NCBI GenBank assembly: GCA_025454925.1
Contig: JALONM010000015.1
Location: forward strand, 1 to 55,647
DNA length: 55,647 nucleotides
Direction: 5' to 3'
From: Cytophagaceae bacterium
GTDB lineage: Bacteria; Bacteroidota; Bacteroidia; Cytophagales; Cytophagaceae
This document shows, in pieces, positions 1,262 through 8,476 of this stretch. Each line of letters starts with the position of its first letter. Position 1 is the stretch's first letter. Both the position numbers and the translations under genes were made by a program. The notes under the pieces are model-generated. The model was not told the origin of the DNA, searched no databases, and was given only the letters and a program-made list of their open reading frames with translations.

Positions 1262-2497
1262 ATGGCCGGAGGAGCATCGAATACCGAAACCTTTAAGGTA
1301 GAGGTAGACAAGAATCAGAAATATGTACTCCCTTTAATTGTACTTACTTCGCTTTTTTTCATGTGGGCGGTAGCCACCAACTTCAACGACATTTTAATGC
1401 CGAAGTTGAAAGCTGCATTAAACTTAACGCACCAGCAAACATCTTTTGTGCAGGTGTTCTTTTTTTTAGGATATGGATTAATGTCTATTCCGGCAGGTAT
1501 CATTATTAAAAAGGTTGGTTACAAGGCGGGTATCTTGATAGGACTTCTTACTTGTGCTTCCGGGGCAGCATTGTTTATTCCAGCAGCTAATTTCCTCCAG
1601 TACGAATTATTTCTCGCGGCTCTTTTTGTGTTGGCGGGAGGTATTACATTCCTTCAGGTAGCAGCCAATGCGTATGTGGCAGTATTAGGAGATCCAAAAT
1701 CTGCTTCTGCTCGTTTAAATCTTTCCCAGGCTTTTAACTCCATTGGTGCGTTTGGTGGTCCATTGTTTGCCAGCATGGTAATGCTGGATGGGGACAACAG
1801 CAGCGTAGAGTCAGTAAAAATGCCGTATATGCTGTTAGCAGTATTATTCATTTTAGTTGCTGTAATTATTGGGTTATCCAAGCTTCCCAAAATTTCAGGC
1901 ACCTCTGAATTTGTAAATCCTTTCTCCGCCTTTAAATTTCGTCACACCACCATGGCTACCATCGCGATATTCTTTTATGTAGGTGCGGAGGTTGCAATCG
2001 GAAGTTATTTTGTTCAGTTTACCGAACATCTGGATCTGAATTTAACAGAGAAACAAGCATCCATATTTATTTCAGCCTATATGGCTTGCGCCGCACTGGG
2101 CAGATTCCTTGGTGCCGGACTTCTTACCAGAATCAATCCTGGTAAAGCCGTTGGTTTTAATGCTCTTGGAGCCGTTGTATTGATTCTGATATGCGTGTTT
2201 GGAAGTGGATATGTATCCTTGGTTTCCCTGGTATTGATAGGCTTGATGAACTCCATTATGTTCCCAACCATCTTTACTCTGGGTGTAGCTAAATTAGGAG
2301 ACTATACCGAAGCGGGTTCATCGCTCATCATTACAGCCATATTGGGCGGTGCTGTTATTACACCTGCTATGGCTTATGTAATCGATAAAGACCCGAGCTT
2401 ATTCAACATTTCCTATTTGATTCCGGCTGCGTGTTATTTATTCATTGCTTACTTCGGATTCAAAGGTTCTGACTCTTCTTATTTGGATAAGAAATAA
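1262..2497 (+). CDS. FHS-family (FucP/GluP-like) sugar:H+ symporter, MFS
   Basis: This is a 12-helix major facilitator permease of the fucose/glucose/galactose:H+ symporter family, acting in the inner membrane. The 411 residues match the family length. TM1 carries the hallmark FFMWAVATNFNDILMPKLK stretch, whose Asp43 corresponds to the proton-coupling Asp of FucP. TM4 reads ITFLQVAANAYVAVLGDP. The position that I recall as the second acidic residue of FucP (a Glu) is Gln132 here, as in glucose/galactose-type members, so the substrate is not clear. RLNLSQAFNSIGAFGGPLFA is another family signature. No sugar catabolic genes lie next to it. The gene is monocistronic and is followed by a strong terminator. 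Confidence 0.85.
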   Translation: MAGGASNTETFKVEVDKNQKYVLPLIVLTSLFFMWAVATNFNDILMPKLKAALNLTHQQTSFVQVFFFLGYGLMSIPAGIIIKKVGYKAGILIGLLTCASGAALFIPAANFLQYELFLAALFVLAGGITFLQVAANAYVAVLGDPKSASARLNLSQAFNSIGAFGGPLFASMVMLDGDNSSVESVKMPYMLLAVLFILVAVIIGLSKLPKISGTSEFVNPFSAFKFRHTTMATIAIFFYVGAEVAIGSYFVQFTEHLDLNLTEKQASIFISAYMACAALGRFLGAGLLTRINPGKAVGFNALGAVVLILICVFGSGYVSLVSLVLIGLMNSIMFPTIFTLGVAKLGDYTEAGSSLIITAILGGAVITPAMAYVIDKDPSLFNISYLIPAACYLFIAYFGFKGSDSSYLDKK

Positions 2498-2514
2498 AAA
2501 TAACCAATCCATGG

Positions 2515-2542
2515 AAGGGGGGCACTAGCCCCCTTTTTTTTT
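2515..2542 (+). terminator. Rho-independent terminator of the FHS permease gene
   Basis: The stem GGGGGC/GCCCCC with an ACTA loop (2518-2533), extended by G-T and A-T pairs, is followed by a run of nine T residues. It lies 18 bases after the permease stop codon. Confidence 0.9.
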
Positions 2543-2650
2543 GCCATACTTCCGGGAATGCAATGGTAAGAAAATGATAGCATGTAACATTATGCCTTTG
2601 CGGAAGTCTAATACTTGAGCGGTTCCCAGGTTGGAATCATCCTTGAGAAG

Positions 2651-3019
2651 ATGCATTCAAAACAAACAGATTACAAGGCAAAGAAGGCCACCCGATTATT
2701 AGGGGAGGCCATGGAGCAAAAAGCCTGTCAGTATTTGCAGTCACGTGGATTTGTCCTCTTGAAAAAGAATTACCGCTACCGACGAGGAGAAATTGATGCC
2801 ATTATGCAGCATGAAAATGTATTGGTATTTGTAGAAGTGAAATATCGAAGGAACAATCGATTTGGTTTTCCGGAATGTTCAGTAACTGAAAAAAAAATTG
2901 TGATGATACAAACCACTGCGGAACAGTATATGTTGGAGACGGCATGGCAAGGAAGAATTCGTTTTGATATTGTGTCTATTTGCGGAGAACAACTCATTCA
3001 TTTGGAAGACGCCTTTTAA
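2651..3019 (+). CDS. YraN/UPF0102 family nuclease-fold protein
   Basis: The 122-residue product shows the UPF0102 pattern: GEAMEQKACQYLQSRGFVLL, then KKNYRYRRGEIDAIM, then VLVFVEVKYR. The GEID...E-x-K arrangement is the active-site signature of the PD-(D/E)XK / Holliday junction resolvase-like nuclease fold (family knowledge). The cellular role of YraN proteins is not settled. An in-frame TTG at 2615 would add 12 residues with no family counterpart, so I choose the ATG at 2651, which gives the usual length of about 120. The gene stands alone and is followed immediately by a cluster of inverted repeats. Confidence 0.85.
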   Translation: MHSKQTDYKAKKATRLLGEAMEQKACQYLQSRGFVLLKKNYRYRRGEIDAIMQHENVLVFVEVKYRRNNRFGFPECSVTEKKIVMIQTTAEQYMLETAWQGRIRFDIVSICGEQLIHLEDAF

Positions 3020-3020
3020 A

Positions 3021-3087
3021 CCGGCTTTTCTCCATAGAAGCGAAGCGCACTATGGAGAAAGTTCATGGATCGAAGATCCATGGCCGG
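3021..3087. repeat. nested inverted repeats that can fold as a three-way junction
   Basis: An outer 5-bp stem, CCGGC 3021-3025 with GCCGG 3083-3087, encloses two hairpins. The first has an 11-bp perfect stem (TTTCTCCATAG 3027-3037 with 3050-3060) and a 12-base loop. The second has an 8-bp perfect stem (CATGGATC 3064-3071 with 3075-3082) and a GAA loop. It starts one base after the yraN stop. There is no T run, so it is not a standard terminator. The TCCATAG-AAGCG...CTATGGA core recurs in the next hairpin at 3157-3206. Confidence 0.75.
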
Positions 3088-3156
3088 TAATCCCGACATA
3101 GAAAATCATGGGCTTTGGAAAGTTTTTTTTGTGTTCGATCCTTACTTGTGAAGCCC

Positions 3157-3206
3157 TTGATGGAATTTTTTCCATAGGAGCGTTTCTATGGAAAAAATTC
3201 CATCAA
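3157..3206. repeat. perfect 21-bp inverted repeat with 8-base loop
   Basis: The arms 3157-3177 and 3186-3206 are exact reverse complements over 21 bases and are separated by GAGCGTTT. The inner part, TCCATAG-GAGCG...CTATGGA, matches the inner part of the hairpin at 3027-3060, so the two look like diverged copies of one element. No gene or transposase lies within it. Confidence 0.8.
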
Positions 3207-3242
3207 ACTGCATGGTTGGTTTTGCGTGAGGGATAGAGTGTA

Positions 3243-3327
3243 AAGCCAAGGTGGTGGCGCTACAGGCGCCACCACCTTGGCTTGCAGCGATAGCCCGGCC
3301 CGCAGTGGAATGGCGCCTTTGGCGCCA
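3243..3327. repeat. REP-like GC-rich hairpin pair
   Basis: A perfect 18-bp inverted repeat (3243-3260 with 3266-3283, loop TACAG) is built on GGTGGTGGCGC. About 28 bases later a smaller hairpin, TGGCGCC-TTT-GGCGCCA (3311-3327), ends in the same GGCGCCACCAC. The segments before and after read GAGGGATAGAGTG and GCGATAGCCCGGCCCGC. These resemble short dispersed palindromes found between Bacteroidota genes (recollection, not searched). From 3328 to 3445 I see nothing further. Confidence 0.7.
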
Positions 3328-3445
3328 CCACAAGGGACACGCCCAAAATAAAATCTGGAGATTAAATACTAACGTAGGGCAACGCAGAGGATGGAGATTT
3401 AGTGGCCCAACCCAATGCTGTCAATACTTTGCAGATAAGGATGCA

Positions 3446-3982
3446 TCAGAAGGGGAGAGGGATATGAAAAATCTTCCAGGCTTTCTTTTTCATTACTCTA
3501 AAACCGATTACCCATTCCTTCCGGCGTAAAATCTTGGCATCGACACTATCGGAAGCCTTCTGTTTAAAGAGTCGATAAGGATTTTGATGAAAATAGAAGT
3601 TTCCTTCCGGCAAGCTGCAACGCAACAGAAACCGTTCCCAGCGCAACAATGTTTGGGTATCGGCAGGTACCCATTCTTCCACCCAGGAAGCAAAGGCAAT
3701 GGCATCCCTGGTATGTTTCAGGTGAAGGCCTTGCAATCGTTCCTGCTGGCTGTATTGCAGAAATTTTTCTCTCAAGTATTCGGAGTGTTTAGCAAACGAG
3801 AAAGGAAGTAAGGATTCTACCTGATGGAGCCTTTTGCGTTTCAATCCTTCTGCGAAGATGTTCACTTCTTCCGCCGACATGCCATGCTTGTGCAATTCCA
3901 ACTCGTCCTCGCGCAATGCAGCATTGGTATACCATGCGGCTAACTGGATTTGCCATTGATGTAATTCCTGGTTATAGGACAT
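3446..3982 (-). CDS. unknown protein translationally coupled to the DUF692/MNIO gene; candidate partner protein
   Basis: The 178-residue protein is rich in charged and aromatic residues, with no signal peptide or membrane segment and a basic C-terminal region. Its ATG shares a base with the stop codon of the upstream MNIO gene (TAATG on the minus strand), so the two are almost certainly co-translated. Many MNIO (DUF692) enzymes need a small partner that binds the precursor peptide and are encoded next to it, often of the DUF2063 or MbnC type (established for methanobactin and related systems). The stretch LPFSFAKHSEYLREKFLQYS is loosely like the N-terminal part of such partners, but I do not recognise the family with confidence. 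The partner role is inferred from position. Confidence 0.7.
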   Translation of the reverse strand: MSYNQELHQWQIQLAAWYTNAALREDELELHKHGMSAEEVNIFAEGLKRKRLHQVESLLPFSFAKHSEYLREKFLQYSQQERLQGLHLKHTRDAIAFASWVEEWVPADTQTLLRWERFLLRCSLPEGNFYFHQNPYRLFKQKASDSVDAKILRRKEWVIGFRVMKKKAWKIFHIPLPF

Positions 3983-4830
3983 TAGCGATAGGAGTTAATC
4001 GTATTATTTTTCTTCATGAAAGTGGATGCTTTTCGTAGATCCTCCAGCAGGATGTTCCAATCCGGATGGTTGTCGTCGCGTTCCAGCACGGCTCCACGCA
4101 CATTGCATCGTTCTGTTAATGCTTGCATTAGGTTCCATACTTCTGGTGGAGTAGGCGCTGCATGGTTGTCAATCCAACGGCCCCATTTAAAAATACCACC
4201 TGTAAAATGGAATTGAATAACCGAGTCCAGGGGCAACGTAGTTAAAAAATCTTCTTCCTTGTATTGATGATTGGCGGCGTTGTACACCAGGTTGGTGAGG
4301 TCTAACAACAATCCGCAGCCACTTTCTTGAATAATTTTTCGGATAAATTCTTCCTCTTTCATTTGGTGCATCGGCTGCTGAACAAGGTAGGAGATGTTTT
4401 CCAGGATCAATGGGGTTTTAATTTTTTTCTGAACCAAGGCAATGTTTTTGCAGATCGTTTCTATGGAAGCATCGGTGTGTGGCAAGGGGCTAAGGTGTCC
4501 GATTTCTATGTTGTTTATTTTACTGAAAGAAATGTGTTCGCTCCAGTAAGGAGGTTGAATAAATTCGATGAGCGAAGCCAGCTTATCTACATACGATTCG
4601 TCAGGAGCTTCGGCACTTCCCAGCGAGGTATTAATAGCATGAGGAATGAGTACAAAGTGATCGTTGAGGACCTGCAGTTCGTGCCATTTTTCAGGGCTTG
4701 CATCGAGGTAGTGATCGGCAACTATTTCTAAAAAATCAATTTCTGCTTTATGTTGGAATACTTTTGAGCTGAAATGAGGGCGGTAGCTGATGCCGGTTCC
4801 TAATTGGGGTATGCTTGCTAATGATTTCAT
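3982..4830 (-). CDS. DUF692/MNIO family protein (multinuclear non-heme iron-dependent oxidative enzyme)
   Basis: The 282 residues match the DUF692 TIM-barrel family, now called MNIO. Characterised members (MbnB, TglH and others) modify Cys or other residues of ribosomally made peptides using two or three iron ions. Visible motifs are GTGISYRPHF near the N-terminus (family G-hG-hR-H), IPHAIN at about 62-67, SEHISF (His99), LILENISYL (Glu144), CGLLLDLTNLVYNAANH (Asp177, Asn180, His188), QFHFTGG (His208), IDNHAAPT (Asp221, His223) and AVLERDD (Glu250). The usual DxNN appears as DLTN, and the usual AGH after the His strand appears as TGG, so it is a divergent member. It lies between a Cys-rich membrane protein upstream and a coupled small gene downstream. 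Confidence 0.85.
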   Translation of the reverse strand: MKSLASIPQLGTGISYRPHFSSKVFQHKAEIDFLEIVADHYLDASPEKWHELQVLNDHFVLIPHAINTSLGSAEAPDESYVDKLASLIEFIQPPYWSEHISFSKINNIEIGHLSPLPHTDASIETICKNIALVQKKIKTPLILENISYLVQQPMHQMKEEEFIRKIIQESGCGLLLDLTNLVYNAANHQYKEEDFLTTLPLDSVIQFHFTGGIFKWGRWIDNHAAPTPPEVWNLMQALTERCNVRGAVLERDDNHPDWNILLEDLRKASTFMKKNNTINSYR

Positions 4831-4906
4831 AGTAATACAGGAACGTAATGTTTTTAATATTCAATTGAAAAATGAATGTACGGTTTCATTGCATTATATA
4901 CCATTG

Positions 4907-5860
4907 TTAATCGCCGCCACCGCAACCGCCGCAGCCTCCGCCACAACCATCGCCCCCTCCGTCTCCTCCGCTGCTGGAGCCGCTGCAGGAGGAGCAGCCT
5001 CCGCTGCTCGAAAAGCTACTATAGTCTTCAGCTTTATTCGGGGAGAGGTGATTGTAACCAACGATAGAAAAACCTCCGAATACAGCAACAAGCGCCATGC
5101 CTTCGCTGGTAGAAATTGTTTGTGCGTCCTTGTTTTTTAAATCCTGGTAAATAACCTCCTGGGATTTTAGAAACTCCGTCGTTGCAAGCGTTACCTTAGG
5201 TACTTTTAAGGCCGTTTTATGAATAAGTGTTCCAATTAATCCAAAGCAAATTATTCCTAAAAAATTATCATGCTCATGAATGACCGCAGAAATGAATTTG
5301 TAAACTCCAAGGGTAATGAATGCAACCCTTGCCCAGTATCCGATTTTTAATAGTTTTTCCCTTGTGGTTTCGGGAATCAGGAAGGCTTTCATGTTAGCTT
5401 TCTCAAGCAGTTCCTGACATTTTTGTTCAACTTTTATTAGTAACCCTAATCGGTTTATGATTTCAGAAATGCTCTTTGAACTATCAATATCTTCCGCTAC
5501 GATTTTTTCTATCGGGTGCACGTTATCGGCAAGCACTCGGCCTTCATACGGCCGGGTTTTATCCTTTCGATTACTTTGTTCCAGAAAATTTTCGGCTTGT
5601 AGTTTATACAAAGCTAATCGGATGGCGCCTTGTGCTCCTGATTTCAAAAATGCAATCAGGTACATATCAGCTGTGCTGGGCGCTTGTTCCCGGGGCCAGC
5701 CGGGATCTAGTGCTTTTAATTTGATACGTAACCAAATCTTTGCAATGATTAATATTACAAACAATGTTCCTGCGTAGATCATCAGAAACCAGGGCCCATG
5801 CAGGGTAGCCAGTGGATTCTCAAATAACAGATTGAAAATTTTATTCATAATTGTTTCCAT
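4907..5860 (-). CDS. TIGR04222-like membrane protein with Gly/Ser/Cys-rich C-terminal tail
   Basis: The 317-residue protein has a hydrophobic segment at about 24-43 and two more at about 176-195 and 200-217. Between them is a soluble region with STADMYLIAFLKSGAQGAIR, which fits the TIGR04222 domain. The last 40 residues change abruptly to low complexity: GGCSSC (Cys289, Cys292), then DGCGGGCGGCGGGD (Cys306, Cys310, Cys313). Proteins of this type are often encoded beside DUF692 enzymes (recollection), and the tail is the obvious candidate substrate. The MNIO gene follows after 76 bases on the same strand. ATGs at residues 1 and 5 are both possible starts. The function is unknown. The tail could be an oxidatively modified metal-binding or peptide segment, or simply a structural low-complexity end. 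Confidence 0.8.
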   Translation of the reverse strand: METIMNKIFNLLFENPLATLHGPWFLMIYAGTLFVILIIAKIWLRIKLKALDPGWPREQAPSTADMYLIAFLKSGAQGAIRLALYKLQAENFLEQSNRKDKTRPYEGRVLADNVHPIEKIVAEDIDSSKSISEIINRLGLLIKVEQKCQELLEKANMKAFLIPETTREKLLKIGYWARVAFITLGVYKFISAVIHEHDNFLGIICFGLIGTLIHKTALKVPKVTLATTEFLKSQEVIYQDLKNKDAQTISTSEGMALVAVFGGFSIVGYNHLSPNKAEDYSSFSSSGGCSSCSGSSSGGDGGGDGCGGGCGGCGGGD

Positions 5861-6214
5861 AGTTTTTTTTGTTTTTCATATTCATACTTTTTTTAATGTA
5901 GAGAGAGAAGAGAGGAAATTTCAGATATAGATTACATACACCGTAATGGTTTTAAATTCATAAAGAGTAATACGTATAATGAGAGGCAAAGAGGAGGAAG
6001 TGCTGAAGAAAAAAGAGATCGGGAGAAGATTGGCGGCGGTTTGAGCTTATTGGGGCCTTTGTTTTGGTATGGTATTTTTTTTCTTATCATTCATTTAAAT
6101 ATACGAATGGTATTAAAAAAAGTAGACGGTTTTGTGTTAACGAATTGTTAAGGATTTCATGCGTGGAAATGATTTTTTAGATGCATAATGTGCCGATAGA
6201 ATTTTTACCATGGA
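5861..6214. other. 354-base intergenic region upstream of the TIGR04222-MNIO cassette
   Basis: No gene longer than a few dozen codons was found. On the plus strand, an ATG at 5979 opens a 21-codon frame ending at 6044 (MRGKEEEVLKKKEIGRRLAA...). A one-base shift after it would continue into a hydrophobic stretch (LLGPLFWYGIFFLIIHL), so a decayed small membrane protein is possible but not supported. I found no exact TAnnTTTG box on the minus strand for the cassette. Confidence 0.3.
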
Positions 6215-6913
6215 TTAGCCATATACCAGCTCTTCGAGGTCGGCCGGTAAAATGTATTTTAGTCGGCCCGGTGTATAAAAGCTATACAAGCGTTCATAAT
6301 GGCCTTGGTAATACCAAAAAATCTGGTCACTGAGTTGTGTTTCTCCAGCTTTTTCAAACAGTTCCTGACAGCTTGGAATCATGCGTTGAAGGCTTACCTC
6401 CAGGTCGATGTCCCCGGCAATCGGCGCGCACCAGAGCACATCACGCTGAGGCATACAAAAGAGTGTTCCGAATTTTCCGATGCACATGGTATGCCGATCC
6501 AGCAGCAGCGCTTCGGTGCAGGCAAAGGAATCGGGTTCGGTAATTTCCAGGAAAAGATTTTTTCCTTTTTGCCATTGGCGTGAATATTTTTCACGCATAT
6601 TCCGAAGGGCTATGGCAAATACTTCTTCCTCCTTTTTATTCCAACGTTCCAATTGTGTTCGTAAGACGCATTCTACTGAGTCGGGTAAATCGAATACTAA
6701 AACAGATAGAATACCATCCAGGTCCTGGCGGCTGAGGAGTTCTTCTACTGGAAACGATTGCAAGGAGGAAGGATGGTGGAGTCTTATAGCCAGGTAGGCT
6801 TGGGCATATTCCCACTGGTCCAGAAATGGCGGCATTAATTCTGCCGACTCTTCCGGAGCTAAGTCCGCAGTGTTTTTTTTGCGGAAACCAAAAAGCCTGC
6901 GCCAGTAGTTCAT
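6215..6913 (-). CDS. hypothetical protein
   Basis: The 232-residue protein has no signal peptide or membrane segment. Its N-terminus is basic (MNYWRRLFGFRKK), followed by an acidic, Pro-containing linker and an alpha/beta-looking region rich in Leu, Glu, Tyr and Trp. It contains four scattered Cys and no obvious catalytic motif. I do not recognise a family. It reads in the same direction as guaB, 69 bases downstream of it, and may be cotranscribed with it. It is separated from the MNIO cassette by 354 bases. The composition and continuous frame support a real gene. Confidence 0.65.
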   Translation of the reverse strand: MNYWRRLFGFRKKNTADLAPEESAELMPPFLDQWEYAQAYLAIRLHHPSSLQSFPVEELLSRQDLDGILSVLVFDLPDSVECVLRTQLERWNKKEEEVFAIALRNMREKYSRQWQKGKNLFLEITEPDSFACTEALLLDRHTMCIGKFGTLFCMPQRDVLWCAPIAGDIDLEVSLQRMIPSCQELFEKAGETQLSDQIFWYYQGHYERLYSFYTPGRLKYILPADLEELVYG

Positions 6914-6982
6914 TGGAATGTATACGAAAAAAAGAAGCAGGTAGTTGGTAAACTCCTGCTTCTATGAAATTTTACACGCACA

Positions 6983-8476
<1,494 letters not shown>

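Follow-up and report, generated by a model that had tools for sequence, protein, structure and literature searches.

A candidate MNIO protein-modification cassette with a Cys/Gly-tailed TIGR04222-type membrane protein in a Cytophagaceae bacterium

The minus strand of the window (the whole stretch of 55,647 nucleotides analysed here) carries a three-gene cassette coding, in this order, for a TIGR04222-type membrane protein, an MNIO enzyme and a protein of 178 amino acids. We propose that this is likely a RiPP-like protein-modification cassette with the Cys/Gly tail of the membrane protein as its substrate. The preliminary description considered such a system undescribed, which proved not to be the case: a combination of TIGR04222 tail, MNIO and "PME-type 2" partner is put forward in the available text of Antoine et al. 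2025 (PMC12452194), and by its sequence the window cassette is a Bacteroidota member of this published, hypothetical kind.

According to that text, more than 3,500 TIGR04222 proteins exist, mostly actinomycetotal, with Ser/Gly-rich C-terminal regions and interspersed Cys. A subset is proposed to be MNIO substrates, the tails are predicted to be periplasmic, and the partners in such clusters, where present, are of PME-type 2; more than a quarter of the proteins lack C-proximal Cys, and MNIOs are absent from one third of the genomes that carry TIGR04222 genes. Next to its MNIO gene the window encodes the hallmark of the proposed subset, a Cys-bearing Ser/Gly tail at the C terminus, and it shares with these clusters the three protein kinds, the several-helix membrane protein and the substrate hypothesis. 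It differs from the published, mostly actinomycetotal set in coming from Bacteroidota and in belonging to a clade that extends across seven phyla. The short-anchor variants and the cytosolic tail discussed below are additions to what the available text contains, and neither "Verrucomicrob" nor "bacteroid" occurs in the main text of that paper. Among the matches listed by full-text literature searches for TIGR04222 or DUF692, PMC12452194 alone had TIGR04222 occurrences, and among the MNIO papers listed since 2025 no title concerned a TIGR04222 product.

Genome organization

The membrane-protein gene (4907..5860, minus strand) codes for 317 amino acids, the proposed substrate, and its product scores 49.9 bits against TIGR04222 (cut-off 43). 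After a gap of 76 bases (4831-4906) it is followed by the MNIO gene (DUF692, PF05114; 3982..4830, minus strand), whose 282 amino acid product scores 253.5 bits against PF05114 (cut-off 25), and then by the gene for the 178 amino acid protein (3446..3982, minus strand), which by position and predicted fold is MNIO-partner-like (DUF2063/TglI/MbnC-like fold, "PME-type 2"). The ATG of the last gene falls inside the MNIO stop codon, giving a TAATG overlap on the minus strand (3980..3984 in plus-strand numbering). This start and the 76-base spacing, both reported in the preliminary description, were confirmed, as was the five-Cys Gly/Ser tail of the membrane protein. Each of the three proteins has a single match in the source genome, and the window cassette contains no further short Cys-rich gene. 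An Rfam search of positions 2400-7200 returned zero matches, and promoter and terminator scans performed no better than on shuffled sequence. In a plasmid collection there was no match to the membrane protein and none to the partner; 357 records matched the MNIO, all at less than 60% identity.

The cassette adjoins a YraN-family gene (2615-3019). YraN-like sequences, recognised by eye only, lie within 4 kb in several acidobacterial loci among those collected below (L100, L102, L109, L115 and L136), which may be coincidence. Strong inverted repeats occupy the region between the YraN-family gene and the cassette (3015-3450), one with perfect 21-nt arms (3157-3177/3186-3206) and another with perfect 18-nt arms (3243-3260/3266-3283); the window holds no second copy of the latter at two or fewer mismatches.

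Distribution and phylogeny

The cassette is rare in Bacteroidota. Among 395 Bacteroidota genomes, TIGR04222 matches were found in 16 (four over the cut-off) and MNIO matches in 27 (25 over the cut-off). The two families occur together in three genomes, those of the window, G291 and G431, and are adjacent in the window only. When 84,980 species genomes were searched with an alignment (A1) of three MNIOs, from the window, G080 and G076, 46 loci of one MNIO subclade emerged, two of them (L135 and L137) cut or partial. Going by record titles or tree labels, these loci cover seven phyla: Planctomycetota, Verrucomicrobiota, Acidobacteriota, Myxococcota, Pseudomonadota, Actinomycetota and Bacteroidota. 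Cultivable carriers among them are Aquisphaera insulae and a Methylocystis strain. Using profiles built from these loci, a partner gene was located downstream of the MNIO in 41 of the 46. A TIGR04222-type gene lies upstream in 33, all 33 of which also have the partner, and 37 loci encode a membrane protein of some kind with the tail. That this order is found again in other phyla is more than chance would give. A lack of conservation, which the preliminary description named as refuting, was seen within the 395 Bacteroidota, where adjacency is confined to the window, but across other phyla the cassette is conserved.

In a tree of 90 MNIOs, the cassette MNIOs form one clade of 46 rows, window included, with support of 99/96; the bufferin-like and other Bacteroidota enzymes fall outside it. 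Five planctomycete MNIOs adjoining TIGR04222 genes join this clade (support 95/92). The window enzyme stands alone on a long branch (1.09), apart from the other Bacteroidota rows, and is nearest by identity to that of Uabimicrobium (51%). The neighbourhood follows the clade: by script, a membrane protein with a tail occurs within 1.5 kb of the MNIO in 36 of 43 clade loci (L130, scored as a miss, does carry a tail) vs three of 39 others. Read by eye, these three are bufferin-like Cys repeats and not the cassette tail, and the Fisher comparison used 36/43 vs 0/39, with the three set aside on that reading.

The partner profile matched one of the 395 Bacteroidota genomes, the window's, and twice in 288 Verrucomicrobiota (the centre genome itself and one 24-bit match); both scans scored at most 8-11 candidates per genome, so that misses are possible. 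The partner was found in three of four genomes having the MNIO clade and scattered genes (not in G484) vs none of ten with TIGR04222-like genes and no MNIO of the cassette clade, two of which (G012 and G075) carry other MNIOs; this comparison leaves out the window genome, where the partner is found and whose own sequence is in the profile. Gene order, partner co-occurrence and the clade-specific neighbourhood jointly support the earlier suggestion that these three families form a unit.

A recurrent neighbour family of about 250 amino acids occurs in nine of the 46 loci (L097, L103, L105, L118, L121, L126, L127, L129 and L130), in three of which (L127, L129 and L130) its gene immediately precedes the TIGR04222 gene. 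Judged by eye it resembles a degenerate nucleotidyltransferase; Pfam gave no match for the single member that was scanned.

The tail and its anchors

The membrane protein ends in SSSGGCSSCSGSSSGGDGGGDGCGGGCGGCGGGD. Its Gly/Ser/Cys/Asp tail (residues 283-317; 4910..5014, minus strand), the proposed modification site, has five Cys, at residues 289, 292, 306, 310 and 313. In an AlphaFold2 model (pLDDT 80.7, pTM 0.72) the tail is disordered, with pLDDT below 50 at 270-300, 302-309 and 314-317. A GGCGGC-like tail end is present in 27 of 32 aligned relatives. The relatives start like MDFLFDNPLANLYGP, and Met5 (about 5848) appears a likelier start than Met1.

Thirteen of the 46 loci are without a TIGR04222-type gene. 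In four from Verrucomicrobiota, two of which (L118 and L126) are near-identical, short tail-bearing membrane proteins near the MNIO and partner replace it (L105:6514-7096, L118:2869-3304, L121:4453-5190 and L126:7412-7907). There are nine such frames, measuring 55-104 codons stop to stop; each specifies a single hydrophobic helix, except for one with two, and all carry the same Gly/Ser/Cys tail. The script that covered all loci collected by then found them in these four only. Two Bacteroidota genomes (G481 and G484; loci L099 and L106), reached through the MNIO alone, both encode a Cys-tailed TIGR04222 protein elsewhere in the genome, against a background of 3/394 over the cut-off. Only these two were used, since a Fisher value on four of four genomes is biased by G076 and G080, which had been chosen for TIGR04222. 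L128 (in G076) is accompanied by two Cys-tailed TIGR04222 genes elsewhere in its genome. As far as the sequences go, what unites the membrane proteins beside the cassette MNIOs is the tail rather than the TIGR04222 domain, and because of this the tail is probably what the enzyme acts on; it is the best evidence we have for that proposal. Against it stand four loci (L103, L119, L133 and L134) with an MNIO and a partner, in which no tail protein was found.

Cys-rich tails of the same make-up also occur in 14 genomes lacking any PF05114 match, 11 from Bacteroidota (G006, G011, G018, G041, G053, G071, G118, G178, G377, G412 and G465) and three from Planctomycetota (G784, G1019 and G1101). One of them, G053, is a one-contig genome of 98% completeness. 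Ten of the 11 Bacteroidota proteins score below the TIGR04222 cut-off, that of G465 above it, as do all three from planctomycetes, for whose genomes completeness was not given. A dependence of tail Cys number on an adjacent MNIO was rejected (medians 6 and 6, p 0.21) on 21 proteins not beside an MNIO, with G076 and G080 dropped (MNIO elsewhere) and 12 others dropped because their reading frame, in the region of the match, closed with at most one tail Cys; some of these 12, several in number, look wrong-frame or partial. In a survey of planctomycetes, six of 15 over-cut-off TIGR04222 proteins adjoin an MNIO, and four of these six pairs have no detectable partner gene. Because of the MNIO-free tails, the equal Cys numbers and the partner-less pairs, the tail may function independently of the enzyme.

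The MNIO-free tails and the partner-less pairs count against the tail as substrate. Perhaps the tail stays unmodified and serves as an assembly element or as a thiol ligand for metal, and MNIO and partner modify another substrate that escaped us. Tails of like composition without an MNIO, equal in Cys number, favour such an arrangement, which we nevertheless hold to be improbable given that the neighbourhood is specific to the MNIO clade, that the tail is kept while the membrane anchor changes and that the window cassette offers no other short Cys-rich gene.

Cys/Gly tails were seen on TIGR04222-like proteins at L020-L026, L080-L082, L086-L089, L178, L180 and L181, mostly in MNIO-free genomes, and some of these proteins resemble GRDP-like (PF07173) or DUF2207_C families below the Pfam cut-offs.

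The MNIO and its relation to known systems

The candidate iron ligands of the window MNIO are H64, H99, E144, D177, N180, H208, D221, H223 and E250. All nine iron ligands reported for TglH in the text available (H71, H107, E151, D184, N187, H216, D229, H231 and E258; PMC10880893) align with these residues in a phmmer alignment, the mapping being counted by hand. Within the clade they are kept in 46 of 46 rows at four sites and in 45 of 46 at five. The window enzyme, judged by this alignment, retains an intact iron-ligand set and is a candidate peptide oxidase. Its best PDB sequence match is the TglH-TglI structure 8hci (E 6.8e-24); the residue given as catalytic in TglH, Asn73 (PMC10880893), aligns to a gap.

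The cassette is like the pearlin (3-thiaglutamate) pair TglH-TglI in MNIO sequence, in all nine iron ligands and in its TglI-like partner fold, and unlike it in the gap at Asn73 and in having no peptide scaffold with added Cys. It resembles the bufferin systems (Buf1/Buf2, BufB, BufC) in pairing an MNIO and a partner with Cys-rich products, and MNIO_BufB is the best NCBIfam model for the enzyme. Bufferin precursors, as described in the available text of PMC12452194, carry Sec signal peptides, and their partners are DUF2063 proteins (PME-type 1), whereas the cassette has a membrane protein and a partner without a match to PF09836 (DUF2063), which gave a weak match in two of 37 relatives. With the enzyme at 214 bits, below the BufB cut-off of 310, a bufferin system was rejected. 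A methanobactin system was likewise rejected: MNIO and partner fold recall MbnB-MbnC, but the score against TIGR04159 is 48.1 bits (cut-off 325) and no MbnA-like precursor was seen.

The partner-like protein

NCBIfam contains no match to the 178 amino acid protein, and in Pfam nothing scored better than E 0.16. An AlphaFold2 model built from 37 relatives reached a mean pLDDT of 85.5 and a pTM of 0.78, and in VIA-align, where coincidence is possible for helical folds at Z below 13, its seven best chains were all MNIO partners. These are NGO1945 (3dee; Z 9.3, 121 residues, rmsd 3.0), TglI (8hci, Z 8.7, 166 residues, rmsd 3.9; 8hi7, Z 8.6) and MbnC (7dz9, 7tcu, 7tcr and 7fc0; Z 6.3, 5.7, 5.5 and 5.4), the next chain, an unrelated one, having a Z of 4.2. 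Foldseek also ranked 3dee first, but with an E-value of 0.55, and this reliance on a modelled fold is a further point against the tail-substrate proposal. Since its gene follows that of the MNIO, Pfam detects no DUF2063 and the predicted fold is NGO1945/TglI-like, the protein appears MNIO-partner-like and fits the PME-type 2 description. The predicted fold supports the earlier assignment of the small protein as an MNIO partner.

When the PDB was searched with the partner profile, the N-terminal helix motif drew weak hits to nitrile hydratase (best E 0.012) and nothing else came up. This motif, LARLYTDxxLRxxF..DP, also shows weak matches to the nitrile hydratase alpha, Nif11 and Frankia_peptide models, families that are linked to RiPP leader peptides. 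In three acidobacterial loci a zinc-ribbon protein, Pfam-checked in L101 only, is encoded between the MNIO and partner genes (L101:6847-7356, L104:5221-5745 and L115:6858-7385).

Membrane topology

Scored with a hydrophobicity scale, the membrane protein has three clear helices. Transmembrane segment 1 (residues 26-44; 5729..5785, minus strand) is followed by four K/R on its C side and preceded by none. Segments 2 and 3 (residues 176-194 and 200-218; 5207..5335, minus strand) and a weak fourth hydrophobic segment directly before the tail (residues 249-267; 5060..5116, minus strand) are indicated by hydrophobicity and the model. At a loose threshold, the fourth is absent from some aligned rows. 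Around helix 1, K/R are more numerous after than before in 32 of 32 aligned relatives (0-1 on the N side, 1-5 on the C side), so the N terminus should be outside and the folded domain cytosolic. If the fourth segment crosses the membrane, the tail would lie outside; if it fails to cross, inside.

The tail, once modified, might accordingly be exported and periplasmic, like a tethered bufferin, in keeping with the topology of Antoine et al. We regard this as plausible, though somewhat short of an even chance. Three solid helices with an outside N terminus in all 32 relatives, plus a fourth crossing, would deliver the tail to the periplasm, as predicted in the available text of PMC12452194; the fourth segment is, however, only weakly hydrophobic, and at least three Bacteroidota/Planctomycetota-type rows fail the loose threshold. 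The short variants also speak against it, since seven of the nine have a K/R excess on the tail side of the helix, which suggests a cytosolic tail, contrary to the periplasmic reading of Antoine et al.; this charge bias is a rule of thumb applied to few and partly related sequences. Of the other two, one, with two helices, is a tie, and one is reversed as scored, with a likely start codon inside the scored segment that would make the charge neutral. The surface display of the tail envisaged in the preliminary description was not borne out: the charge rule points to a cytosolic tail in most short variants, and in the TIGR04222-type protein the side would depend on the weak fourth segment.

For the fold of the membrane protein, a PDB sequence search with its profile gave nothing credible, GOLPH3/Vps74 chains being absent from the matches listed, and Foldseek with the model gave none at E 0.001 or better. 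GOLPH3/Vps74 chains came top in VIA-align for the predicted cytosolic domain (window 5060-5860): 3kn1 with Z 8.1, 9qpq with 8.2 and 2zih with 6.6. The GOLPH3 chains, at Z 8.1-8.2, superpose over some 150 residues with an rmsd of 4.5-4.8. We treat this modelled likeness as a weak lead.

Proposed mechanism and implications

In the mechanism that we consider likely, the membrane protein would bear the disordered Cys/Gly tail, the 178 amino acid partner would dock on the MNIO in the manner of TglI and MbnC and present the tail, and the MNIO would oxidise some of the tail Cys, we infer probably forming a thiooxazole- or oxazolone/thioamide-type group that binds metal. The product would be a membrane-tethered chelator buffering copper or a similar metal. 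Alternatively, cleavage or rearrangement of the tail by the MNIO might set a peptide free, for which the membrane part would be no more than a carrier. The varied chemistry of MNIOs on other precursors (described in the available text of PMC12452194) and the disorder before the tail in the model would allow this, but no recurrent protease or exporter gene appeared in the neighbour clusters, partly annotated, that were examined by eye, and we think release very unlikely.

Within the tail-substrate mechanism, we tentatively suggest a more specific form, less probable than its general outline: a modular C-terminal Cys/Gly tail would be the substrate on any membrane anchor, whether a TIGR04222 domain or just a protein of one or two helices, the tail would be cytosolic, MNIO and partner would work at the inner membrane face, and the product would be a permanently tethered, modified metal buffer. 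If this is true, there would be a class of MNIO products made without export. The short verrucomicrobial variants, whole candidate substrates of about peptide size, would make the TIGR04222 question easy to test. The MNIO-free tails imply that the tail may serve some purpose by itself, which modification might tune rather than create. If the tail is indeed modified, MNIO chemistry would reach beyond small secreted peptides to integral membrane proteins, at their tails, in seven or more phyla.
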